In this document: piece by piece, positions 5,392 to 27,723 of the stretch | Position numbering within the stretch: position 1 is the stretch's first letter | Layout: every line of letters begins with the position of its first letter | DNA from: Calditrichota bacterium | Lineage (GTDB): Bacteria; Calditrichota; Calditrichia; Calditrichales; Calditrichaceae | DNA length: 57,811 bases | Direction of reading: 5' to 3' | NCBI GenBank assembly: GCA_024278755.1 | Contig: JAJRSO010000065.1 | Location: forward strand, 1 to 57,811 | The notes under the pieces: generated by a model | What the model was told of the DNA's origin: nothing | What the model saw: the letters and a program-made list of their open reading frames with translations, nothing else | Database searches by the model: none | Made by a program: the position numbers and the translations under genes

Positions 5392-5886
5392 TTATTTTAT
5401 AAGGATACTGTCTTTTTGCAGCGATTTAATAAAAATATAGGGGCGTATTTTTTGCAGCGTTTTGGAACCAATACGTTTTACTTTTGTTAGTTCTTCCGGT
5501 TTATTGAATCGACCGTGTTCCGTACGGTAGTCAATAATCCATTGTGCTGTTTTGGGCCCGACTCCGGGAAGCGTCTCTAATTCTTTTAATCCGGCCGTAT
5601 TGATATCAATCGAATGCTGTTTGAGTGTTTTTTTGTCTGTCTTTTTCTTCGGAATCAGTTTTATTCTTTTTTCCTTTTCAGGATAAACTGCTGTTTGTGC
5701 CGCTTTTTTCCGTATCATTTTTAACGTGTCTACCGACAACGCTTTAAACAGGCTGTCCTGCAGAGAATAATCATACTGGCGGCTTTTTATTTTATGCGGC
5801 AAAAAGAACTGAACCAAGGCTCCTGCCGCCAAAATTACCACCAACAGCAGCAGGGCCTTTTGTTCTTTGGAAGTTAAGCGGATCAT
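5392..5886 (-). CDS. ComEA-like helix-hairpin-helix protein, membrane-anchored
   Basis: A 164-aa protein with one N-terminal transmembrane segment (about residues 10-29), a lysine-rich linker (55-90), and a C-terminal tandem helix-hairpin-helix domain (91-152) carrying INTAGLKELETLPGVGPKTA and VKRIGSKTLQKI. This is the layout of ComEA, the periplasmic double-stranded DNA receptor of natural transformation. In this lineage such domains also occur in proteins not tested for DNA uptake. It follows dnaJ by 14 bases and is probably co-transcribed with grpE-dnaJ. A pilM-like gene lies in the same window, but no comEC or comF is present. Confidence 0.75.
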   Translation of the reverse strand: MIRLTSKEQKALLLLVVILAAGALVQFFLPHKIKSRQYDYSLQDSLFKALSVDTLKMIRKKAAQTAVYPEKEKRIKLIPKKKTDKKTLKQHSIDINTAGLKELETLPGVGPKTAQWIIDYRTEHGRFNKPEELTKVKRIGSKTLQKIRPYIFIKSLQKDSILIK

Positions 5887-5900
5887 TTAAAACCCACGGT

Positions 5901-7055
5901 TTATAAATTTAGCGCTTCCTTAAATTTTTCAAAAATACTGTGGTGTCCATCCTTTTTGGGGTGCATATTTTCAAATTCGTCCAATTCGTGCAGTTTTTGT
6001 TTTTCTACCGCCGATAATCTTGTCGGAACATAGACCTGTATCTGAATTAGTTGATCGCCCATTCCCGCGCCCCGCAGCCGGGGAATACCTTTTCCGCGCA
6101 TGCGTAGCAGAGTCCCGGATTGCGTACCCGGCGCAATGTTTAACTTTGCCTTTCCCGTTAATGTGGGAATTTCTACCGTGGCGCCAAGCGCCGCCTTCGG
6201 AAAACTAATCGGCAACACCATTAGCACATTTTCGCCGCGCCGTTCGAATATTTTATGTTTTACTTCTTCAATATGGACGATTAAATCTCCTGCGGGGCCG
6301 CCGCGCAGTCCCATGTTTCCCTCTCCGTGCAGGGGAATATAATTTCCATTGGCCACACCGGCCGGCACATTGATTTCAATTGTTTTACTGCCGGTCACCC
6401 GACCCTCGCCTCCGCAGGCGCGGCAGGGATTTTCAATTATCTGCCCTTCGCCGTGGCAGCGGTGACAGGCGGTTACATTGATCATTTGTCCGAAAAGAGA
6501 TTGCGATACCTGACGCAGTTCCCCGCTTCCGTGGCAAACCGGGCAGGAGGTCGTGCGGCTGTATTTAGCCGATCCCGTTCCGTTACATTCCGAACAACTA
6601 ATCTTTTTCTTAACTTTAATTTTTTTAGTAACGCCTGTGGCGATTTCTTCCAGCGTCAGTTTCAGTTTTACCTGCAGATCGCTTCCTTTGCGGGAGGAAG
6701 ATCTCCTGCGGCCGCCACCGCCGCCGCCGAAAATATCGCCAAAGCCGAAGCCTTGTTCCATAAACTGGCGCAGCGCGTCGGAAATATCAAAGCCACCGCC
6801 CATGCCAAAGCCTTCAAAGCCGCCGCCCATCCCCGGCCCGTCATGTCCGAACCGATCGTATTTTTGACGTTTTTGGTCATCCGATAAAATGGCATACGCT
6901 TCCGCCACTTCTTTAAATTTCGCCTCGGCCTCTTTGTCTCCGGCGTTTTTATCCGGATGATATTTAATGGCCAGTTTTCGGTAGGCTTTCTTTATTTCGT
7001 CTGCCGTGGCGTTGCGATCCACGCCCAACACTTCGTAAAAATCTCTTTTTGCCAT
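5901..7055 (-). CDS. dnaJ: Chaperone protein DnaJ
   Basis: Type I Hsp40, 384 aa, co-chaperone stimulating the ATPase of DnaK. The J domain occupies residues 1-70 with the HPD motif at about 33-35. A Gly/Phe-rich region follows (about 73-115, with a run of seven glycines). The zinc domain has four CxxCxGxG repeats ([32 protein letters not shown]), then the C-terminal substrate-binding domain. It starts 8 bases after grpE. dnaK is not adjacent, so it must be elsewhere in the genome. Confidence 0.97.
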
Positions 7056-7063
7056 GCTCTTCC

Positions 7064-7630
7064 TTATTTTGCCACTAATACCTGCGCGTGGCGAATCACT
7101 TTATCGTTTAGTAAATATCCCTTTAAATGTTCGCTGATAATAAAACCGCTTTCCACGTCGTCGCTATCGGCCTGCATTAGCGCCTGATGTTTTTCGGCGT
7201 CAAATTCCTGCCCAACCGATTCCATCGTCTTTAATCCTTTTTTCTCCAGAACATCCATAATTTTTTTATGAATCAGGGCAACGCCGTCTTTAAGAGAAGC
7301 GCTGTTGGTATCATCGTCCGCGTGTTCCAGAAAACGGTCAAAATCATCGATTGCCGGCAGCAGGTCGATAATCAGGCCTTCGTTTGCATTTTGCAGATGG
7401 TTTAAAAATTCTTTTTCGGTACGGCGCTTATAATTCTCAAACTCGGCCATTTTGCGCAGGAGCTGGTCTTTCAGCTGGCCGCGCTCTTCTTCCAAGGCGC
7501 TAATTTTCTTTTCCAGCGCTGCAATTTTTTTATTTTCTTTGCTTTTTTCGGAAGCGGCTTTTTTCTTTTTCTTAGGCTTTTCCGGAGCCTCTTTCTCCAT
7601 TTTTGCTGCTTTTGATTTATCTTCTGTCAT
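7064..7630 (-). CDS. grpE: Nucleotide exchange factor GrpE
   Basis: A 188-aa GrpE, the dimeric exchange factor that releases ADP from DnaK. A long lysine/glutamate-rich head (residues 1-40) is followed by the coiled-coil dimerisation helix (about 40-85, ending [12 protein letters not shown]) and the C-terminal beta domain (HQALMQ and [19 protein letters not shown] are characteristic). It is first of a grpE-dnaJ-comEA-like operon with a strong promoter upstream. No CIRCE element and no hrcA gene were found beside it. Confidence 0.96.
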
Positions 7631-7694
7631 CGCTTGTCTTTCTATATTTATAATGTAACTTTTAACTTTTTTTCGGATAAAATCGATCCGTAAA

Positions 7695-7723
7695 TTTTAC
7701 AGATATTCCCTAATACTGTCAAG
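7695..7723 (-). promoter_or_regulatory. Strong sigma-70-type promoter for grpE-dnaJ
   Basis: Read on the minus strand: TTGACA (7718-7723), a 17-base spacer, then TAAAAT (7695-7700). The spacer forms most of an imperfect palindrome (ACAGTATT / AATATCTGT) that could be an operator. Consensus elements here suggest housekeeping rather than purely heat-shock transcription. Confidence 0.65.
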
Positions 7724-7795
7724 TTTCAGTGTAGGAAATCGGGGATTCCTTAAAACCGGTACGAATCCTTTAAGGCGCCACACTCATAAATAAAT

Positions 7796-7824
7796 CCGGG
7801 CTTTAAATTAGATTGAAAGCCGGG
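7796..7824 (-). terminator. Probable terminator of ftsEX
   Basis: On the minus strand CCCGGCTTT, an 11-base loop and AAAGCCCGG pair except for one C-C mismatch. They are followed by ATTTATTTAT, a weak T-rich tail, and lie about 40 bases after the ftsX stop. Confidence 0.45.
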
Positions 7825-7861
7825 TAAAAAGTTACACCGCCCCCCCCGCGAAAGTACCGTT

Positions 7862-8722
7862 TTAAATCCTATCCAGATAGCGGGACAGACTCAAGGCGCT
7901 GGAGACCATTCCAATGACAATGCCGGCGCCAATCAATATAAAATAGAGATTATCCTGCATCACCAGCGAATGAAACAACAAACGGCGGATGGCGCTGACT
8001 GAAAGAGAGAGCAAACCGCCGGCAAACAGAGCGCCCAGCAAACCTTGCACAAAACCTTCAATGAGAAAGGGGCGTTTTATAAAAGAAGCTGTGGCGCCGG
8101 TGAGCCCCATTATTTCGATAATATCTCGCCGTGCGAAAATGGTAAGACGGATGGTATTATAAAGCAGAATCACGGCAATGAAAAGAAGAATCGCGCCGAA
8201 ACCGCCAAGAATAATATATATCCAGGTCACATAGTAGTCGATTAGGCGCAGCAGTTCTTTTTCGTACACCACATCGCTAACGCCCTCAATACGGCCGATT
8301 TGCAGTACTATTTTTTGCACCGCCGCAGATGTTTGGAATCCGGACTTAAGTTTTACCCGGCAGGAAGGCGGCAGGGGATTAGAATCCAGCACATCATAAA
8401 TATTCCGTCCGAATTCTTTTTCGAAACGGGCCGCGGCGTCTTTTTTAGAAATATAAACCACACTACCGGCGCCCGGAATTTTTTGCACTTGTGCCGTTAA
8501 AGCCTTTGCTTTGGCGTTGCTTACATCGTTTTCAAAAAAGACTTCCAGTTCCATTTGAGAACGTTTTTCGCCGATCCAGCGGTTAACATTTATGGAAAAA
8601 AGAATGAAATAGCCGGCTAACAATAGGGCCAGCGCCAGCGAAGTAATGGTAATCACGCTAGCCAGGCGCGCCCGTTTAAATCCCAAAAGACCCTCTTTTA
8701 CGGAAAACCAGAAATTTCTCAC
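7862..8722 (-). CDS. ftsX: Cell division protein FtsX
   Basis: A 286-aa integral membrane partner of the FtsE ATPase. It has an N-terminal transmembrane segment (about 20-45), a periplasmic domain of about 120 residues (SQMELEVFFEND to RLIDYYV), then three more transmembrane segments in the C-terminal half. The permease-like motif RRDIIEIMGLTGAT after the second segment is typical of FtsX. Family members couple ATP hydrolysis to activation of peptidoglycan hydrolases at the septum. The start overlaps the ftsE stop by 4 bases. Confidence 0.93.
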   Translation of the reverse strand: MRNFWFSVKEGLLGFKRARLASVITITSLALALLLAGYFILFSINVNRWIGEKRSQMELEVFFENDVSNAKAKALTAQVQKIPGAGSVVYISKKDAAARFEKEFGRNIYDVLDSNPLPPSCRVKLKSGFQTSAAVQKIVLQIGRIEGVSDVVYEKELLRLIDYYVTWIYIILGGFGAILLFIAVILLYNTIRLTIFARRDIIEIMGLTGATASFIKRPFLIEGFVQGLLGALFAGGLLSLSVSAIRRLLFHSLVMQDNLYFILIGAGIVIGMVSSALSLSRYLDRI

Positions 8723-9369
8723 CGTCCCACCCGGCCTTCTTTAATTTCGATAATGCGGTGCGGAAAGGCAGAAATTAATTCGTTATCGTGTGTAGCCATT
8801 AAAACAGCCGTACCGCTTTGATTGATCTTTTGCAGAATTTCCATTATTTCCAGCGAATTATCGGAATCCAGATTTCCGGTCGGTTCGTCGGCCAGCACGG
8901 CAATGGGATTGTTCACCACGGCCCGGGCGATGGCCGCGCGCTGCTGTTCGCCTCCGGAGAGTTCATCCGGATAATGATTTCGTTTATGACTCAGATTCAC
9001 ATCGGTTAACACCCGCAGAACGCGCCGTTTAATTTCTTTTCCGGGCATACCGATAACGCGCAGCGCAAAGGCCGTATTGTCAAATATATTGCGATCCGGC
9101 AGTAGTTTAAAATCCTGAAACACAACCCCAAGCTGGCGGCGCAGGTAGGGAATTTCCTTATCCTTTATTTTTGCCGAGCTGTAGCGTTCGATAATTACAG
9201 TGCCGCGATCGGGAAACAAATCCATATACAGTAAACGTAAAACGGTCGATTTCCCCGCGCCGCTGGCCCCGGTCAGGTAAACAAATTCGCCTTTTAAAAT
9301 ACGAAAAGAGACATCCCGGAGGATTGTTTTTTTATCGATGTTTAGGTCTACATTATAAAATTCTATCAT
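8719..9369 (-). CDS. ftsE: Cell division ATP-binding protein FtsE
   Basis: A 216-aa ABC ATPase. Walker A is GASGAGKS (about residues 35-42), the signature [14 protein letters not shown], and Walker [12 protein letters not shown], followed by the switch histidine in MATHDNEL. Together with the overlapping ftsX this is the classical ftsEX pair acting at the division site on the inner membrane. An M23 metallopeptidase, a family often controlled by FtsEX, is encoded some 6 kb away but is not shown to be linked functionally. Confidence 0.95.
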
Positions 9370-14782: not shown

Positions 14783-16351
14783 ATGTATTTTAAACGTCTA
14801 TGTATCATAAGCATTCTTCTGCTTTCTTTCTCTGCCCGGGCGCAGGTTGTGCATCAAATGCAGTTTGACCGTTTTTCGCATTCTGCTCCCGACGACTGGA
14901 TTACGTATGCCCCAACCACCGATATAACCGACATCGATCTTGGAGATGATTTTGTCTATTTTGCCACTCTTCGCGGCGGGATTTTACGCTACCATTTATA
15001 CGAGCATTACTGGGATTATCCTTTTACGACCAGCAACGGTTTACGCAGCAATCATATTTTGCATCTTTCTTTTGATATACATACCCACCAACTTTATGCC
15101 GAAACGGTAAAAGGAATTGATCTGTTTAATCCCTCTCTTGGCTATTGGCAGCCGGCCCAACGCTCTGCGCTCCCTCCCCGGCAGCAGCCGCTTTCCGAAG
15201 AGGTTCGAACATACCGTCAAAACCCAAATTTTCATTTCCCCGAATTTTATAATCCCGGTAATCGGGAACTACCTGATTTTTTTATGCCCCGGGGATTTGT
15301 CTTTAATCCGCCCAAGGATATTTTAGATCCATTTAACCGCTCCTTTCAGTTAAAAGCCGCTCGCATTACCGATCGCTTCGGGACCTTGTGGCTTTCTACA
15401 AACGGGCTGGGAATCGGCCGCTGTTCGACAGATGACTGGACATTGTACACAGAGCAGCGTTCCATTTCCAATATTTCCGTCCGTGATGTTTTAATTGACA
15501 AAAAGGGTATCTGGATTGGGGGAATCAGCAAAAGACATGAGCCGGCCGGCATTGTTTTTTGGAATGATTCGCTGGATATCTGGAAATTTTTTGAAGCGCA
15601 TTATAATTTTGACCTTTTAAGCAATAATGTGCAGGTGATCGCCAGTAACGAGCGCGATGTTTTTTTCGGTACAGAATTAGGGCTTGTCAAATATTCAAAA
15701 GAAAATAAACAATGGTCTGCCGTTCAGGCCTATTCGCGTTTCTTATCGGAGCCAATCAACGACTTAAAGTTTTTAAACGGAAAACTATTTATCGCATCTG
15801 CGGTCGGGCTGGGCTGGATGTATCCGGATAATTCCGGAATTGAGTTGCCAAAAGACAAAACCATAAACACCATGGAAGCGCATCAGCTTGCCACGCTTGA
15901 CTCTACTCTGCTGGTTGCCACTGATTACGGATTATACGAATATAATCCCGAAACAGAACGGTTTTCCTTTTTTAATGTGAGCGCTGCTTTATCGGAATAC
16001 GGTGCATCGGCCATAAACGCAAACGGTGATTCCCTATGGATTGCCGGACCTTCCGGCATAATTCTTTTCAATCAGAAAAACAAACAGTGGTTTTCGTTTA
16101 CGCAGATTCAGCGGCAGATACACGCCCTTTATTACGACATCGCTTTTAGCGGGCCGTTTATTTGGTTTGCTACAAGCAAGGGCTTGCTGCGTTATGATAC
16201 CGCGCAAAATTACTGGTATTTGTATACGCGCAAAGATGGTTTGGCGTCCAACAAAGTTTACCATATCGATGTAGATAATGATTTGTTGTGGCTCAGCACC
16301 GAAGGGGGAGTAACTACTTTTTTATGGCAAAGAGAAGGACGTATAGAATAA
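14783..16351 (+). CDS. Exported beta-propeller protein (two-component-regulator propeller type)
   Basis: A 522-aa protein with a cleavable signal peptide (about residues 1-20, ending SARAQ). It has repeated blades with the pattern of two-component-regulator propellers: GGILRYHLYEHYW, TDRFGTLWLSTNGLGI, KKGIWIGGISKR, DVFFGTELGLVKY, GPFIWFATSKGLLRY and NDLLWLSTEGGV. No kinase or DNA-binding domain follows, so it is a free-standing periplasmic or surface propeller. It is common in the FCB group and without known activity. The position after hflX gives no functional hint. Confidence 0.75.
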   Translation: MYFKRLCIISILLLSFSARAQVVHQMQFDRFSHSAPDDWITYAPTTDITDIDLGDDFVYFATLRGGILRYHLYEHYWDYPFTTSNGLRSNHILHLSFDIHTHQLYAETVKGIDLFNPSLGYWQPAQRSALPPRQQPLSEEVRTYRQNPNFHFPEFYNPGNRELPDFFMPRGFVFNPPKDILDPFNRSFQLKAARITDRFGTLWLSTNGLGIGRCSTDDWTLYTEQRSISNISVRDVLIDKKGIWIGGISKRHEPAGIVFWNDSLDIWKFFEAHYNFDLLSNNVQVIASNERDVFFGTELGLVKYSKENKQWSAVQAYSRFLSEPINDLKFLNGKLFIASAVGLGWMYPDNSGIELPKDKTINTMEAHQLATLDSTLLVATDYGLYEYNPETERFSFFNVSAALSEYGASAINANGDSLWIAGPSGIILFNQKNKQWFSFTQIQRQIHALYYDIAFSGPFIWFATSKGLLRYDTAQNYWYLYTRKDGLASNKVYHIDVDNDLLWLSTEGGVTTFLWQREGRIE

Positions 16352-20618: not shown

Positions 20619-21110
20619 TTATTTTCCTTTTTTAAACTTCTGTATAATTTTCTTTGCGACAAAATCAGGAACAAATTTATTAATATCGCCGTCAAAGCTG
20701 GCCACATTTTTAATAATAGACGAACTTAAATACGTATATTTTTCATGCGGCATAAAAAAAACGGTATCGATATCTTCGGCCAGGTTACGGTTCATCAGGG
20801 CCATCTGAAATTCAAATTCAAAATCCGATATAGCCCGTAATCCTCGAATGATGGCCGAAGCTCCGCTTTTTATTGCCAGATCGACAATTAAGCCGTCGAA
20901 GACAACAACGCTTGCATTGGGAATATGTTCCACTGCTTTTTCTACCATTTCTTTTCTTTCGTCCGGACGGAACAATAGCGTTTTTTTGGGGTTTATCGCC
21001 AAGGTAACTATAACTTTGTCAAACACCCGGCAACTGCGTTCTATAATATCGATATGCCCTAAAGTAATGGGATCAAATGTACCCGGATACACGGCCGTTT
21101 TATTACTCAT
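20619..21110 (-). CDS. coaD: Phosphopantetheine adenylyltransferase
   Basis: A 163-aa CoaD, which transfers AMP from ATP to 4'-phosphopantetheine in coenzyme A synthesis. The nucleotidyltransferase signature TFDPITLGHIDII (T/HxGH type) is at residues 11-23, IIRGLRAISDFEFEFQMALMNR is the substrate region, and YTYLSSSIIKNVA is the ISSS-like loop. The length is typical. It overlaps rsmD by 8 bases and precedes pta by 2 bases, so CoA synthesis and acetyl-CoA use share a transcript. Confidence 0.96.
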   Translation of the reverse strand: MSNKTAVYPGTFDPITLGHIDIIERSCRVFDKVIVTLAINPKKTLLFRPDERKEMVEKAVEHIPNASVVVFDGLIVDLAIKSGASAIIRGLRAISDFEFEFQMALMNRNLAEDIDTVFFMPHEKYTYLSSSIIKNVASFDGDINKFVPDFVAKKIIQKFKKGK

Positions 21111-21660
21111 ATGATTCCTTATATTCTAAAAAACTGATAAAACTGCGGCTTATTTTTTTCTGTAAAAACAGATTATAATGCGGGCTTTCGGTTTGAATCG
21201 GATTAATAACCTCATGCTCCAGAACCAGAATACCGTTTTTATTTAATTGCCGGTTGGAAAAAAAAGCATCTATTAATTCCTGTAATGGCGGATATTTATA
21301 TGGCGGATCCATGAAACATAAATCTGCTTTTTCGGTTTCGGAGCGGACAAAGGCCAAAGCATCTTTTTGTATGATTTGATATTGATTCGGTGGAACTTTT
21401 ACAGCGGTAAGATTCTCTTTTAATACCCGGATGGAAGAATATGCTTTTTCGACAAAAACGGTTCTTTGCGCTCCACGGCTAAGGGCCTCGAGGCCCAGTC
21501 CTCCGCTGCCGGAAAAAATATCAAAAACCTGCGCGTCTTGTGGAAATTCCCGGAGAATATTAAAAATGTATTCTTTTACTCTGTCGGTTGCGGGTCGAAT
21601 GCTGAGATCTTTACTGCCTTTAAGGCGGCGGCCTCGATAGATTCCGGAAATTATACGCAT
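21103..21660 (-). CDS. rsmD: 16S rRNA (guanine(966)-N(2))-methyltransferase RsmD
   Basis: A 185-aa RsmD-family methyltransferase modifying G966 of 16S rRNA. The N-terminus MRIISGIYRGRRL and RPATDRVKEYIFNIL are diagnostic. Motif I is VFDIFSGSGGLGLEALSRGA and the catalytic tetrapeptide DPPY appears in LCFMDPPYKYPPL. The rsmD-coaD pairing is very common in bacteria. Here the pair follows a pilM/pilN-like pair by 15 bases. Confidence 0.95.
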   Translation of the reverse strand: MRIISGIYRGRRLKGSKDLSIRPATDRVKEYIFNILREFPQDAQVFDIFSGSGGLGLEALSRGAQRTVFVEKAYSSIRVLKENLTAVKVPPNQYQIIQKDALAFVRSETEKADLCFMDPPYKYPPLQELIDAFFSNRQLNKNGILVLEHEVINPIQTESPHYNLFLQKKISRSFISFLEYKESYE

Positions 21661-21675
21661 TTTATAAAGACAAAC

Positions 21676-22827
21676 CTATAAATAAACCTGAACGATAAGC
21701 CGCATCTGATATTTTTTAGAACTGAAATTACGCTGATCCACAGCATTTAAACTTAATTTTGTAACGGTAATGTTTCGGTTTGCATCTCCAATGCTTTTAA
21801 TCAACTGAAGACAATTATCGCGGCTGCCATAAACAGAGGCGTCTATCTCTACAGCATCAAAACCGCTACGGCGGCCTAATGGACGTGTTTTGAGATTCTT
21901 CATTTTTAACGATCCGTTGTCCACCAGAAAGGATAACCAGTTTTTTGCTTCTGCGGCCGATTTAAACGGATTGCTAACGGTACGTCCGGTTGGTCCTCCG
22001 CTACCGGACAGTGTCATTTTATAAACGCCAAAAATGCCACCGTTAGGGCCGGGACGATCCTGAGACGAGACTATTTTAATATTATTATTCTTGAATTCTT
22101 CTTTTAATTTGATATTGAGCTTTGCCAGTCCCGCACGGGTTTTGGCAAAGGCTTCAAAAGTCAAATCCGTGCCGTAAAACAAAATGCTGGACAAGCGGGC
22201 TTTTTGCAACACGGCGCCGGAAACACGGGCTATGGAAGATGTGGCAAATTGTGTTTTCCCGGCGTGTTCGGCATAAAATTTCGTCTTACGCACTTCTTCG
22301 GCCGAAGGGCCTTTTTTCTCGGCTACAGTTTTTTCGCTTTTTTGTTTTTCGGCTATAGTTGTATCCGATGTATCAAAAAAGAATATTTTCCCTAAATACA
22401 GGAGAACCGCAACGGCAATAATTATTATAATCGCAATAATAAAGGGCTTGTAGCTTATCTTTTTCTGCTTATCATCATAGTAATCCGGTAATTCTTCTTC
22501 ACCGTCATTAACAAAATCCGAAGTTGTTTCCGGTTCCTCGGAAAATTCCGGTTTTTTTTCGCTTGGTTCTGTTCCGGTAAAATCAAAATTCTCTTTTACA
22601 TCTTCATTAAAATCCTGCGGAGTGGTGTCCAGCCCTTCAATATCATCCAGGTCCAGCGGTTCCTCCGGCATTTCTTCGTGTTCAAAAACAGTTTCTTCTT
22701 TTTCCGGAAGTGGTCTGGCAAAAAGATCTTCATCCGGCTGAGATTTTTCAGGTACGCCCTGCTCCGGTTTTTTCTTTTGTTCGCCGGAAAAAAAATCGTC
22801 CTCACTAATCAAATCAAAATTTGCCAT
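21676..22827 (-). CDS. PilN/PilO-like bitopic membrane protein (candidate)
   Basis: A 383-aa protein with a long, very acidic cytoplasmic N-terminus (about 1-120), one transmembrane helix (about 127-150), and an extracytoplasmic domain with a helical stretch and two alpha/beta repeats (about 220-383). This is the layout of PilN/PilO assembly proteins, although the cytoplasmic head is much longer and there is no recognisable INLLP motif. The start MANFDLISEDDFF might be the equivalent docking peptide. It directly follows a PilM-like gene (22 bases), which supports the idea. Assignment rests on architecture and context, not on clear sequence identity. A GGGAGA ribosome binding site precedes the ATG. 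Confidence 0.45.
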   Translation of the reverse strand: MANFDLISEDDFFSGEQKKKPEQGVPEKSQPDEDLFARPLPEKEETVFEHEEMPEEPLDLDDIEGLDTTPQDFNEDVKENFDFTGTEPSEKKPEFSEEPETTSDFVNDGEEELPDYYDDKQKKISYKPFIIAIIIIIAVAVLLYLGKIFFFDTSDTTIAEKQKSEKTVAEKKGPSAEEVRKTKFYAEHAGKTQFATSSIARVSGAVLQKARLSSILFYGTDLTFEAFAKTRAGLAKLNIKLKEEFKNNNIKIVSSQDRPGPNGGIFGVYKMTLSGSGGPTGRTVSNPFKSAAEAKNWLSFLVDNGSLKMKNLKTRPLGRRSGFDAVEIDASVYGSRDNCLQLIKSIGDANRNITVTKLSLNAVDQRNFSSKKYQMRLIVQVYL

Positions 22828-22849
22828 CTATTTCTCCCAAAATTCTTTA

Positions 22850-23716
22850 TTAATCAAACAGAACCTGTATGGCTTCCAGTCCGGAATTCGTTTTTCCCAT
22901 CTGAAGAGACTGTAACATAACCACCGGTTTAGTAAACTGGTCTTCAAATAGTTTTTCCAATTGTGGGCTAAGACCATCGCCATAAATAAAAAAATTTAAT
23001 TCTTTTTCCTGAGTAAAGGGCAGTTTTTGTAATAGTTCTTCAGTTGCATTAAGCCTGTTTTTAGAAATTTCAAACAATCTCTGTTCCGGTTCGGAGGAAT
23101 TATTTTTTATACTGTCTAAATAAGAATAATAGTATTTTCCGTCTATAAACAGTTGCGCATTGATACAACTTTTTCCCAGTTTAACGACAAGGGCATTTAA
23201 TATTTCTTTTTGGTTAAGAATATCCGATGCTAAAAAATTGGCAGGCACTATTTTTTTAAGCGCCATTTTACTTTTTTCCGCTAATTGCTTCAGGGCGCTG
23301 ATGATCTCTTTTTTAAAGGCTAAAAAAACAACTTCCCGGTAATTTCCAAGCGTAAATTCCGTTCGGGAATTAATAATTTTGTATTCTTCAATGGGCCCGG
23401 ATAGGTAATTTTTAAACTCCCATTCCGCTTGGTGTTGTAAAAGCTCCGTATCGGCTTCGAGTGGAAGAGCTATTTTTTTTAGGTGTACAAAATTCATGGG
23501 AAGAGATACCGATAGTTCCGGGTTTTCCGAAATATCGTTCTCTGCCGTTTCCGCCAGTACCGCGGCCAGCGTATTTATTTGCTCGTCTTTAAACAACGTT
23601 TCATATGAAAATTCAAATGGGTATGGAATCGATTTAACCTTCTGAACCGCCCCGCTCCGGGCAAACGCTGTATGCACTAATGTGTCTGAAAACGCAATTC
23701 CAATTTGATTATTCAT
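22850..23716 (-). CDS. PilM-like actin-fold protein (candidate)
   Basis: A protein of about 288 aa. The order of elements resembles PilM/GspL cytoplasmic domains. It has an N-terminal IGIAFSDTLVHTAFA strand-turn in place of the GIDIG phosphate loop, then SVSLPMNFVHLKKIALP, a LLQHQAEWEFKNYLSGPIEEYKI block matching the W-E-Ax-x-YIPFPxEE segment, and EVVFLAFKKEIISALKQLAEKSKMALKKI. The phosphate-binding residues look weak, so nucleotide binding is doubtful. ATG 23716 is chosen; a TTG at 23728 is in frame. It leads the operon pilM-like, pilN-like, rsmD, coaD, pta, fmdB-like. PilM normally docks the cytoplasmic tail of PilN at the inner membrane. Confidence 0.55.
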   Translation of the reverse strand: MNNQIGIAFSDTLVHTAFARSGAVQKVKSIPYPFEFSYETLFKDEQINTLAAVLAETAENDISENPELSVSLPMNFVHLKKIALPLEADTELLQHQAEWEFKNYLSGPIEEYKIINSRTEFTLGNYREVVFLAFKKEIISALKQLAEKSKMALKKIVPANFLASDILNQKEILNALVVKLGKSCINAQLFIDGKYYYSYLDSIKNNSSEPEQRLFEISKNRLNATEELLQKLPFTQEKELNFFIYGDGLSPQLEKLFEDQFTKPVVMLQSLQMGKTNSGLEAIQVLFD

Positions 23717-23734
23717 AGGCCGTTTCAAGTAATA

Positions 23735-23760
23735 AAAAAGGAGGGATTAGCCTCCTTTTT
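23735..23760 (-). terminator. Intrinsic terminator of the 557-aa membrane protein gene
   Basis: On the minus strand AAAAAGGAGG, a 6-base loop and CCTCCTTTTTT form a perfect stem with a T-run. It lies between the stop at 23780 and the pilM-like start, so the two are transcribed separately. Confidence 0.85.
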
Positions 23761-23779
23761 TAATGGTAAATGCCGTTAA

Positions 23780-25453
23780 TTATTTTTCTTCCCAGCTTTT
23801 GCTGCCGCCATCTATGTAACCGAAATTAACAATTTTTTTCTTAAAAACGCCGTATCGGGTTTCGGTTGTTCCTTCCGAAGTAAACAGGTAGATCTTTCCT
23901 AATTTTTCTTCCAGACTTCCGAGGTTACTGTCTGAGGCATTTTTAATATTTGTAAGAAATTGTTCTAATTGTATTTTGTCCTGTTCAAGGTTTACAATAT
24001 CCTTTGGCAGACGTCGTACTTTTGATAAAAGCGAATCAAAAGCAAACATTGCATTGCCAAGATCCTGGTGCAAAGTATCCAGCTTTCCAAAGGTGTTTTC
24101 GGTATAGGCCTGGTTAAAAACCTGAATACCGGCCAGACTGTTTTTGGTAATTTCTTTTAATTCACTAAAACTTTCACTTTGCGGCACCGTCTGAATCATG
24201 GTATTCAAATCCGTATAGGATTTAACAACAATTATTTCTTTAAAGCGCTTAATTATCTCTTCCATCTCTTTATAAGCAATAAAGATGTCGGTGTTTTTGC
24301 GTAACCGTTTGCGAATGGCATACCCTTTTGTATTTATACTATCCAAATTATCAATATAGGATTTAAATGCCGACATCAGCGCAAGGTTTTTGGTTTCTTC
24401 GACAACGGGCGTGAGTTTTTCTTTTAACTCGTCCGTTAAGATCGGACTTTCAATCTTTATAGACGTCGAGTCATCCGAAATTATTATTTTAACCTGTCCG
24501 CCGGTTACCGGACAGAAAAAATTGTTTTCAGTAAGATGAAGGACCATCGAATCTGCGTCTGCCAAACGATAGAGAGCTCGTTTACTGGTAATAAGAAAGT
24601 CACCGAGAAAAACCTGATATTTTTCATCGACGCGATTGCTTATTTCATCAGCCAGGGCAACATCTTCCTCAAAATTTGCCGCTTTCATTTTATTCAGACT
24701 TTCATCGGCGTCTTTTCTAAAATCTTTCATGCGGTCGGCAACGCTGGTCTCATTTACCAGGTCAGACTTAAGAATGTTTTTTATAAGAACGCCAACCCGC
24801 TCAGACAGTGGCGCCCAAGCTTCGGCAAGCGCATTTACATTCACTTTCGGAAAGACAATTTTAAGCGTATCGGTAATCGCTTTTGTTTTTGCCGCACCGC
24901 TCAAAAGTGAAAAATCCGATAAATCACGGCGCAGTTTTATTAATGAATCTATATATGCGCCGGTAATTTTATAATTGGGAAATTTGTCGGAAGAATTAAA
25001 AACGGAAATATGGGTGTTCAGATCTTCCGCTTCATTTTTAATATTTTCATACTTCCGAAAATAAATCCGATTCGATTCCAGGTCTTCCATTATTCTGCCG
25101 ACATTATCATTAAACGTGGCAATATCATGGATAAAGGGAATTTCCACATAGGTATCCATCAACCCGGTTAATTCATTCGTGTAATTAACAAGCCCCTGCA
25201 AACGTTGCAGAGAAGAATCTTCCCGTACCACACGCAGAAGTTCTGCGGGATCGGTTGTATACGAATTATTCAGCCGGTAATAAAAGCGCTCTGCTTCATA
25301 AATACTGGTCATGTTGCCGCGACTTTCTTTCATTTCACGGGCCTCTTCTTCCCATAATTGTGCGGGAATTACAATCACTGCGATTAAAACAACTGCCAGT
25401 ATGACCATCAGGAGTTTTAATACGATGGAACCATTACCATCATTTTTTGCCAT
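23780..25453 (-). CDS. Membrane-anchored coiled protein, unknown
   Basis: A 557-aa protein with one N-terminal transmembrane helix (about 11-31) and a long helical extracytoplasmic body. Just after the helix, the segment GNMTSIYEAERFYYRLNNSYTTDPAELLRVV resembles the post-helix region of pseudopilin-like proteins. The cysteine in NNFFCPVTGGQVKI recalls the C-P-x-T-G pattern of similar FCB proteins. The remainder (about 130-290 and 360-520) is heptad-like with many charged residues. It is monocistronic and adjacent to the PilM/PilN-like pair. I do not recognise a family, and a role in envelope or pilus-like assembly is only a suggestion from context. Confidence 0.6.
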   Translation of the reverse strand: MAKNDGNGSIVLKLLMVILAVVLIAVIVIPAQLWEEEAREMKESRGNMTSIYEAERFYYRLNNSYTTDPAELLRVVREDSSLQRLQGLVNYTNELTGLMDTYVEIPFIHDIATFNDNVGRIMEDLESNRIYFRKYENIKNEAEDLNTHISVFNSSDKFPNYKITGAYIDSLIKLRRDLSDFSLLSGAAKTKAITDTLKIVFPKVNVNALAEAWAPLSERVGVLIKNILKSDLVNETSVADRMKDFRKDADESLNKMKAANFEEDVALADEISNRVDEKYQVFLGDFLITSKRALYRLADADSMVLHLTENNFFCPVTGGQVKIIISDDSTSIKIESPILTDELKEKLTPVVEETKNLALMSAFKSYIDNLDSINTKGYAIRKRLRKNTDIFIAYKEMEEIIKRFKEIIVVKSYTDLNTMIQTVPQSESFSELKEITKNSLAGIQVFNQAYTENTFGKLDTLHQDLGNAMFAFDSLLSKVRRLPKDIVNLEQDKIQLEQFLTNIKNASDSNLGSLEEKLGKIYLFTSEGTTETRYGVFKKKIVNFGYIDGGSKSWEEK

Positions 25454-25737: not shown

Positions 25738-27723
25738 ATGATTAAGTTTATATTCCCTCTGTTTTTTGTTTTAGTTAGTTTTATATCCTGCTCTAAAGAG
25801 CAAACAACGCCTGATTTTTTTAGCCGGATAAAAACCCTTGAATATAGCAGGGAGCAGAATGCCGCAAAATGGGAAACTTTGTATCGGCAACTAAAAACAG
25901 ACGACCAAAAGCAAGCGCTCCTTAAATCTGTCGCCAAAATCAAAAGCCGTTCCTGCATTCCTTTTCTTGCCCGGGCGCTTCGGCATTCTGTATCCGATTC
26001 CATCTCTAAGGCTGCTATTTTTGCTCTTGGACAAAGCGGCGGCGCCGAGGCGGAAAACGTTTTACTCCGTCTGCCTTTTGATTCGTTAAAAACTCCCGCT
26101 CAGACGCAATTATTATTTGCCCTGTCTCAATGCGGATCGGAACAGGCAATTCCCTTTTTGCAACGACGCTTAAAATCCGGATCGTTTCCGCGGCAGACAT
26201 TTTCTACGCTTGCCCATTTACGAAGAAAGGGGGTTGGAAAATCGTTTTTTCCCGAAGACTCCAGCCGTGTTTTGGCCTATTATCTTTATTATGCTGCAGA
26301 ATTTAAACATCTTCCGCTTACTATTTCTTTGCTGAGCCATGCAAAACCTGCAAATCAAAAGTATTTATTTAAAACATTAGTTAAAAAAGCGGCCTTAGAC
26401 AGTGGTCGTTTTAGACGGATACTTCGTTCGGACAGCTTGGCGTTAGGGGAATTAAAAACGGCGCTTCTATCTGTTCTTTCAAAAAAAACAGACTGGAAAA
26501 TTCAACTGTATGCTTTGCCTCTTGTTCCGTTACTTCGCGATTCCATATTAACCGGACAGCTGCGGAGTTTTTATACCTCTTCCAACCCGCATCTTTTTCT
26601 ATCCGCAGTAAAGGCTTCTGTTGCGCCGATGTCCTCTTCGGAGGCCTCCTCTTTGTTGCTTTCTTTTTTGGGTTCGGAACAAAATCCGTTTCTGCGAGCC
26701 GAGCTTTTAAAACTCCTGGCTCGTTTTAATAATCAGATTGCTTACCGTATTATAATGCAAGATTTGGACAAGGGGACTAACCGTTATAAAATAGCGCTGC
26801 TCGACGCTCTTGCCCAAACCGAAATAAAGCCGGCCCTAAACACTATCAGGCAGTTTCTTGCCGTTCCCAATCCGCCGCTTGCCAACAAGGCCTTTGAACT
26901 CTTGGCAAAACGTGGCTTAATTTATAAGCAAAACATACAACAACTGTTGGCTTCGGAAGCCTTTAGTTCTGTAACCATTGCCCTGGAACAGTGTAAAAAA
27001 GAGCGCTTAAAACTTGCGGCCGAAACATTGCTAAACCTATATCATAAATTCAGCACTCCCGCAGATTTTGAAGTACAAAAAGCGGTGGTTAATTATTTTT
27101 CGGAAAAAACGGTTTTAACAGATACGCTCCTGCAAAATCGTCTTTGGGATCAGGCGGCTCACCCTTTTATGCAACGGCTGCTTATACAAAAAGACCCAAC
27201 GCTTTTTCCCGGCCGGAGAGTAACCAAAAAATACCTGGAATATTTACCCGTTTTCTTACGGCCGGACTCTCTGGATTACAATCATAAAAATCCGCAGATT
27301 TTAATTAAAACGAGTCGCGGTGAAATAACCATAGAGCTTTATATCCGGGATGCGCCTCTTACGGTTCATAATTTTTTACACCTCACAACCACCGGTTTTT
27401 ATAGGCGCCTGGATTTTCACCGGGTTGTGTCCGATTTTGTCATTCAGGGCGGCGATCCCGAAGGAGACGGCTGGGGCGGAACCGACTATTTAATCCCTTC
27501 GGAAGACAATGGCATTCCTTTTGAGCGGGGAAGCGTAGGAATTGCCACCTCCGGGTTTGATACGGGAAGCTGCCAGTTTTTTATCTGCCAATCCGGGCAG
27601 CCGCATCTGACAGGGAACTATACAAACTTTGGACGTGTTATAAAGGGAATGGACGTTGTTAATCATATTCTTCCGGGGGATAAAATTCTTGATATTAAAC
27701 GATTGGACGGTAACTCTTTATGA
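25738..27723 (+). CDS. Lipoprotein with HEAT-like repeats fused to a cyclophilin-type peptidyl-prolyl isomerase
   Basis: A 661-aa protein. The signal peptide ends in a lipobox with C18 (VSFISC), so it is probably a membrane-anchored lipoprotein. Residues about 45-480 are alpha-helical HEAT-like repeats (for example SCIPFLARALRHSVSDSISKAAIFALGQSGG, given here only in outline). Residues about 520-660 form a cyclophilin domain with the active-site blocks FHRVV, FVIQGGD, GSCQFFIC and NFGRVIKG, equivalent to the catalytic Arg, Phe/Gln and Gln-Phe residues. Cyclophilins accelerate proline isomerisation during folding, and the HEAT scaffold may bind clients. It overlaps the histidine kinase gene by 4 bases, an unusual pairing. 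Confidence 0.88.
   Translation: MIKFIFPLFFVLVSFISCSKEQTTPDFFSRIKTLEYSREQNAAKWETLYRQLKTDDQKQALLKSVAKIKSRSCIPFLARALRHSVSDSISKAAIFALGQSGGAEAENVLLRLPFDSLKTPAQTQLLFALSQCGSEQAIPFLQRRLKSGSFPRQTFSTLAHLRRKGVGKSFFPEDSSRVLAYYLYYAAEFKHLPLTISLLSHAKPANQKYLFKTLVKKAALDSGRFRRILRSDSLALGELKTALLSVLSKKTDWKIQLYALPLVPLLRDSILTGQLRSFYTSSNPHLFLSAVKASVAPMSSSEASSLLLSFLGSEQNPFLRAELLKLLARFNNQIAYRIIMQDLDKGTNRYKIALLDALAQTEIKPALNTIRQFLAVPNPPLANKAFELLAKRGLIYKQNIQQLLASEAFSSVTIALEQCKKERLKLAAETLLNLYHKFSTPADFEVQKAVVNYFSEKTVLTDTLLQNRLWDQAAHPFMQRLLIQKDPTLFPGRRVTKKYLEYLPVFLRPDSLDYNHKNPQILIKTSRGEITIELYIRDAPLTVHNFLHLTTTGFYRRLDFHRVVSDFVIQGGDPEGDGWGGTDYLIPSEDNGIPFERGSVGIATSGFDTGSCQFFICQSGQPHLTGNYTNFGRVIKGMDVVNHILPGDKILDIKRLDGNSL

Follow-up and report, generated by a model that had tools for sequence, protein, structure and literature searches.

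What do PilM-like and PilN-like proteins do where they are encoded apart from a pilus motor? The question is raised by three tandem genes in a stretch of 57,811 nucleotides from a Calditrichota bacterium (GenBank assembly GCA_024278755.1, contig JAJRSO010000065.1, positions 1 to 57,811; hereafter the window), which lies on contig C54 of a host assembly of 3.94 Mb and 79 contigs. In the open reading frame (ORF) listing these minus-strand genes extend from 25453 to 21676, where an earlier note made from the letters alone had placed them, and encode a protein of 557 residues (P557), a PilM-like protein and a PilN-like protein. The architecture is well supported as that of a module that descends from a type IV filament machine and is encoded apart from its motor, and we propose, at a probability of about 0.4, that the module is an inner-membrane complex which takes up or handles DNA independently of a motor. 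The features that the argument needs at the outset are given below, with protein models computed by AlphaFold2 (AF2).

23780..25453, minus strand: P557, pilin relative of 557 aa, predicted to have an N-terminal pilin-type helix, two helical insertions and a small C-terminal sheet; C-terminal SWEE.
23732..23776 (approximate limits), minus strand: hairpin with T run in the gap between the P557 and PilM-like genes, terminator-like by folding of the gap.
22850..23716, minus strand: putative PilM-like actin-fold protein, 288 aa from ATG, assigned by family profiles and with its start set by alignment; the ORF opens at TTG 23728.
21676..22827, minus strand: putative PilN-like bitopic protein, 383 aa, assigned by AF2 model, structural matches, motif count and T2SSM_b matches in 8/22 family members.

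The assignment of P557 came from profile comparison. A profile of 21 P557 relatives matched the solved major pilin 8tj2 (PilA) with an E-value of 1.4e-6 over profile positions 11-67, and gave weaker matches to geopilin, PilA and GspG (E = 0.023 for GspG). The profile of the short forms reached PilA at 2e-7 and GspG at 0.0014, and the 126-aa form at locus L103 reached Myxococcus PilA at 1.1e-7 and GspG at 1.8e-7, both under the curated cut-offs. In the AF2 model of P557 (pLDDT 90.5), a helix spans residues 10-62, short strands occupy 322-335 and 529-548, and the intervening parts are helical blocks. The protein starts with MAKNDGNG, followed after the presumed cut by SIVLK and by a proline at position 22. 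In an N-terminal alignment of 47 proteins, Ser(+1) was kept in 42 and Pro22 in 47, although the alignment register was set on Pro22; compared with a class III signal, which is a predicted site only, Gly(-1) was present in 44 proteins but Glu5 in only 15, with Lys at position 5 in 25, P557 of the window among them. Fold searches with the whole 557-aa model found helical-bundle look-alikes only and no pilin, so it is the sequence profiles, together with the length of the helix and the layout of the strands, that support the pilin core of P557.

Relatives of P557 outside the phylum have 126-499 aa, end in an SW, NW or DW motif and align to it mostly in blocks near 1-113, 282-339 and 530-562; P557 therefore resembles a small pilin relative into which two segments have been inserted. 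Profiles and model together support its classification as a pilin relative with a pilin-like helix, a small sheet and two large helical insertions, which replaces the earlier description of a membrane coiled protein. Like PilA and GspG, it has the helix match, the Gly/Ser junction, Pro22 and a first helix of pilin length; unlike them, it has 557 aa, two helical insertions and Lys5, and for its 21 members Pfam N_methyl was not among the matches listed.

For the PilM-like protein, the ORF that opens at TTG (22850-23728) encodes 292 aa; an internal ATG at residue 5 (codon 23716-23714) is the invariant start in the alignment, and translation probably begins there, at 23716, giving 288 aa. Taken alone, the window protein scored 17.9 bits against TIGR01175 (cut-off 133) and had no PilM_2 (PF11104) match of its own. 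At the level of the family, 12 of 24 members matched PilM_2 (best 1.4e-7) and six matched T2SSL, and the family profile reached solved PilM with an E-value of 4.6e-10. The PilM-like set from outside the phylum reached solved PilM at 9.5e-34 and the window's family at 8.5e-29 (hhalign); the latter family also matched FtsA weakly (E = 0.0065). These matches support family-level homology to PilM and so bear out the identity proposed earlier, though the single protein is below curated cut-offs. The host genome contains a second match to the PilM_2 profile (G000:C6:20028-20354, 42.6 bits), apparently another actin-fold protein.

PilN binds PilM through an INLLP motif. The PilN-like protein opens with an NLL-type motif, and the pattern [ND]-[LIV]-[LIMVWFK] stood at the N-terminus of 34 of 39 PilN-like proteins versus 5.5% of shuffles, with close variants in the other five. 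Next come a disordered acidic tail (42 D/E versus 12 K/R in residues 1-125, with a pLDDT of <50 over most of the tail in the AF2 model), a helix at 127-150 that fits a transmembrane segment, and two ferredoxin-like domains. In structural alignments, the first domain (residues ~190-274, PilN/GspL-type) matched C-domains of GspL with Z-scores of 6.0-6.5 (PulL 6.5), and the second (~285-383, PilO/GspM-type) matched PilO with Z-scores of 7.8-9.4 and GspM with 5.4-6.3 (PulM 6.3); a Z-score near 6 is weak by itself, so the second domain is assigned more firmly than the first. Foldseek returned nothing for this model at an E-value of 0.001 or better, its top hit being PilO at 2.4e-3, and the window protein scored 20.5 bits against T2SSM_b (cut-off 21.7). 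Sequence and model thus support a probable PilN/GspL-type and PilO/GspM-type domain joined in one chain; the bitopic layout with a long acidic cytoplasmic tail had been described in the earlier note and agrees with the model and the alignments. The module resembles the type IVa PilM/PilN/PilO and GspL/GspM systems in its putative actin-fold PilM relative, its two domain types and its NLL-type motif. Unlike these systems, it has the predicted PilN and PilO domains in one chain with an acidic tail, its gene partners are rsmD and a pilin relative of 557 aa, and no PilP, PilQ, PilB or PilC is encoded at the locus.

The gene run that follows the PilN-like gene on the same strand comprises rsmD, coaD, pta, a zinc-ribbon protein gene and a citrate synthase gene; the first three had been named earlier as operon partners and are all present. 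Two of them are constant downstream neighbours:

21103..21660, minus strand: rsmD, named by similarity; next gene in 34/38 loci.
20619..21110, minus strand: coaD, named by similarity; present in 33/38 loci.

To follow this arrangement through the phylum, one locus was read per carrier genome (38 loci). A profile search found P557 in 38 of 40 Calditrichota genomes, as a single copy in 37 and split by a frameshift in one, whereas a single-query search found the PilM-like protein in only 25 of the 40; a search for related loci returned one locus. The PilM-like gene follows P557 in 37/37 loci with both on the contig (in G011 the two are on separate contigs), and the PilN-like gene is present in 36/38. 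Every shortfall falls at a contig end, including those of rsmD (four loci) and coaD (five loci). The order P557, PilM-like, PilN-like, rsmD, coaD is unbroken as far as the contigs reach. The earlier note had named a conserved neighbourhood as a check, and since this order is kept across the phylum, the arrangement is more than chance. In G020, both P557 and rsmD are broken into two ORFs (L041 7351-9032 and 11126-11683), by sequencing error or a real frameshift. A candidate dissociation, pilus present and module absent, was dropped for G006 and G007: both genomes are without P557 and also without a convincing rsmD, so that the whole locus may be missing from these assemblies and the absence of P557 is uninformative. 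Divergent from P557, and just upstream of it, a plus-strand gene at 25738-27723 encodes HEAT repeats and a cyclophilin-type domain; it keeps this position in most loci of families f1-f3.

Between P557 and the PilM-like gene, folding gave a hairpin (12-bp stem, T run, -18.8 kcal/mol with flanks), which a scan for consensus terminators did not list. When 23 such gaps were folded, values of -13 kcal/mol or below were found in 13/15 from families f1-f3 and in 2/8 from families f4-f6, in which the gap is 6-20 bases long in seven of eight; these counts use fold energy, and an automatic terminator criterion flagged 8/23 gaps, all of them in f1-f3. The hairpin may act as a partial terminator and so make P557 the more abundant product. 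The separate termination of P557 claimed earlier is in this sense retained, as a terminator-like element in the gap that would terminate transcription in part.

Is the module confined to Calditrichota? In a sample of 290 genomes the P557 profile also matched many pilin-like N-termini, and 20 stretches were fetched. Seven of these (L097-L102, L104), without a PilM-like, rsmD or ComEA-like neighbour, were set aside as ordinary pilin-like; in the other 13 (L085-L096, L103) a pilin relative stands beside rsmD, PilM-like or ComEA-like genes. A PilM-like protein was recognised by profile in eight of the 13, and in four more (L092-L095) a PilM-PilN fusion was read by eye; L091 has a ComEA-like gene and a pilin relative without an adjoining PilM-like gene or fusion. 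The PilN-like profile matched in three (L086, L088, L089); at L085 and L087 the corresponding position is taken by a gene whose product has an NLL start. rsmD is downstream in 12/13, and in 11/13 the pilin relative is immediately preceded by a ComEA-like gene (10 by similarity, L094 by reading). Several of these loci also have dnaJ, grpE, ftsX and ftsE upstream of the module. The constant neighbours are rsmD and coaD in the phylum, and ComEA-like, dnaJ/grpE and ftsE/ftsX genes outside it. The window holds the same genes at a distance:

5392..5886, minus strand: ComEA-like helix-hairpin-helix (HHH) protein with an N-terminal hydrophobic segment (TIGR00426, 62.4 bits against a cut-off of 53.1).
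5901..9369, minus strand: dnaJ, grpE, ftsX and ftsE (Pfam).

From the shared dnaJ, grpE, ftsX, ftsE and ComEA-like genes, the window appears to contain a single ancestral cluster in two halves. Elsewhere in the window, a plus-strand gene at 14783-16351 has a PorZ-type beta-propeller match (34.9 bits against a cut-off of 27), a hint of type IX secretion parts.

A further family, DUF3822, occupies a similar genomic place. It scored over its cut-off in 19 of 80 sampled genomes of the phylum of G101; the label Bacteroidota-type that we give to these loci comes from Bacteroides ihuae, the only control genome with DUF3822. The next gene after DUF3822 is rsmD in 16/19 loci and coaD in 3/19, and in 7/19 the gene just upstream encodes a small membrane protein that ends in GNW and has a pilin-like stretch. 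In hhalign, this small protein matched the short pilin relatives at 1.3e-5 and P557 at 3.8e-4 over 37 columns. The family includes BT_3980 (PF12864; structure 3HRG, E = 1.7e-43), whose structure title gives an actin-like ATPase fold and which, in the part of a published comparison available to us, is listed beside type IVb pilus assembly proteins (PMC3984277). DUF3822 and the PilM-like families matched each other weakly (hhalign 0.004 and 0.0023, probabilities 8 and 13; control against PilN-like proteins 0.47), and the DUF3822 profile had no match in the host genome or in the Calditrichota members of the 290-genome sample. Common descent of DUF3822 and the PilM-like proteins is likely but unproven: the actin-like fold, the place directly before rsmD or coaD in 19/19 loci and the small pilin-like protein upstream are shared, in contrast to the weak sequence link and the missing match in this genome. 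At L168 (604-2016) and L169 (1279-2697), a ComEA-like gene is followed by a protein that matches DUF3822 below the cut-off, with no pilin relative between. We found no paper on DUF3822 in the open-licence PMC literature.

Whether the module could work with a pilus motor was addressed by searching the host genome for three families: T2SSE, T2SSF and Peptidase_A24 were found only on contig C77, never on C54. A secretin, PilO, two pilin-type proteins with N_methyl matches and a PilM_2 protein of 616 aa are encoded on C77 as well, so the check for pilus genes elsewhere that the earlier note had proposed turned up a cluster with its own PilM_2 and PilO. Its statement that no PilB, PilC, PilQ or pilin is nearby agrees with the absence of T2SSE and T2SSF from the window contig and needs revision for the pilin, since P557 is itself a pilin relative. 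The 616-aa protein (L054 8793-10643) has a later hydrophobic segment and is apparently a PilM-PilN fusion. The generic model of type IV filaments, as given in the part of PMC6668835 available to us, requires an assembly ATPase, an inner-membrane platform and a major pilin, whereas T2SSE and T2SSF are absent from the contig of this locus. The accessible text of the C. abyssi genome paper (PMC5317091) mentions a type IV pilus cluster as well as genes for flagella.

The same families were surveyed in 53 genomes, 51 of them carriers of the module. Most carriers have T2SSE, T2SSF and Peptidase_A24; Peptidase_A24 was not found in 12/51, including the single-contig G039, and none of the three scored over cut-off in carriers G011, G014, G022 and G236. 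The best motor-less case is G236 (0.9 Mb, 98% complete), from which the pilin-type glycine is gone too. A rule by which Gly(-1) is gone wherever the peptidase is gone was abandoned: the glycine is lost in G094 and G236 (no A24 found) and in G093 (weak A24), and kept in G014, G022 and G039 (no A24 found). T2SSE proteins of ~600 aa stand beside T2SSF in G024, G029, G030, G033, G035, G039, G084 and G094, several without detectable A24, as a filament-type system of its own.

How, then, might the module work? A PilM-type actin-fold protein in the cytoplasm would hold the N-terminus of the PilN-like protein, and the periplasmic PilN- and PilO-type domains would form, together with P557, a standing inner-membrane complex and not a growing filament. 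P557 would be anchored by its pilin-type helix beside the PilM/PilN-like pair and, in the several families in which the hairpin would trim downstream transcription, would be the most abundant part. A ComEA-type DNA-binding protein would deliver periplasmic DNA, which the complex would pass toward an inner-membrane channel. Uptake or handling would proceed without PilB and PilC, and the complex may co-operate with the pilus in pilus-bearing hosts and work alone elsewhere. The pattern at position 5, with Lys outnumbering Glu, is unusual for a filament subunit and supports this reading. The DNA part of it was drawn from the ComEA adjacency outside the phylum and from Riemerella anatipestifer, in which, according to the accessible part of PMC8459023, transformation requires an HHH protein and no pili were detected. 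The likeness to that system (DNA uptake without detected pili, an essential HHH protein) is by analogy, and among the screen results given there no PilM-like, DUF3822 or pilin-like gene appears.

Several observations weigh against a role in DNA uptake without a motor. It is odd for a DNA-uptake module to be kept by nearly all genomes, even one of 0.9 Mb. In Calditrichota the ComEA-like gene does not adjoin the module, the distance in the window being 17 kb. Of the 13 loci outside the phylum, L086 and L092 are without a ComEA-like gene there, and the adjacency in the remainder may reflect a gene order passed on by descent, like that of dnaJ and ftsEX. The R. anatipestifer screen, in the part of PMC8459023 that we could consult, gave no DUF3822 gene. 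G011, G014 and G022 are incomplete drafts in which one lost contig could explain the absences, and a few such absences are to be expected among 40 drafts.

The main rival is a static envelope scaffold of the PilM-like, PilN/PilO-like and P557 proteins for envelope growth, division or stability, with no DNA role. We regard it as somewhat unlikely. It would account well for carriage by 38/40 phylum genomes, in single copy in 37, for retention in the 0.9-Mb G236 without a ComEA-like neighbour and for the predicted large helical periplasmic part of P557; the weak FtsA match of the PilM-like family and ftsE/ftsX in the wider cluster point the same way, but grpE and dnaJ separate ftsEX from the module, and the nearest upstream neighbour in 11/13 outside loci is the ComEA-like gene. 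Considerably less probable is an accessory of the resident pilus, with P557 as an outsized minor pilin and the PilM/PilN-like pair as an alternative docking platform for distant PilB and PilC. The conserved Gly(-1) and Ser(+1), the motor and peptidase families of most carriers and the full cluster on C77 would suit such a role; that cluster, however, has its own PilM and PilO, no A24 was found in 12/51 carriers including G039, G236 lacks matches to all three families as well as the glycine, Lys5 prevails, and the 21 members show no N_methyl among the matches listed. Of the two options left by the earlier note, the distinct inner-membrane assembly is the better one, since C77 encodes a separate PilM_2 and PilO for its pilus and motor-less carriers exist (mostly drafts); docking to a distant pilus system is the lesser, and would apply to genomes that have pili.

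The same note had tied that assembly to CoA metabolism, and this part did not stand. A CoA- or acetate-linked membrane assembly would fit the adjacency of coaD and the presence of pta in some loci, but pta is next in line in 18/38 loci only, rsmD lies between the module and coaD, and the constant neighbours are rsmD and coaD; we rejected it as highly improbable. A flagellar cage like FcpMNO of Campylobacterota was rejected in the same way and appears just as implausible. The available part of PMC11870540 describes FcpM, FcpN and FcpO as PilMNO relatives in an operon outside pili, which is the point of likeness, and many Calditrichota have FlhA. The cage is flagella-bound, whereas FlhA was not found in 33/66 genomes searched, including all 15 DUF3822 genomes there and carriers G014, G022, G039, G235, G236 and G097, and the module includes a pilin relative; it is therefore not a flagellar part.

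In its widest form, the proposal of a motor-independent complex becomes one of a shared, ancient, motor-free machine derived from type IV filaments that forms, with ComEA, the inner-membrane part of DNA uptake in several phyla, is largest in Calditrichota and persists in Bacteroidota as DUF3822 and the GNW-ending protein. It would help to explain pilus-free transformation, and we hold it to be rather unlikely as a whole.

We found no description of this module in the open-licence PMC literature, and it may be an overlooked machine for DNA handling or envelope support. If the proposed reading is true, a PilM/PilN/PilO core joined by a pilin relative can stand as a machine in its own right, kept throughout one phylum and also outside it; the uncharacterised actin-fold family DUF3822 would gain a testable role, and there would be candidates for DNA import in diderms without detectable pili. 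Even if its part is structural, a pilin relative that has gained two helical domains and a constant place next to PilM would be an unusual evolutionary product.

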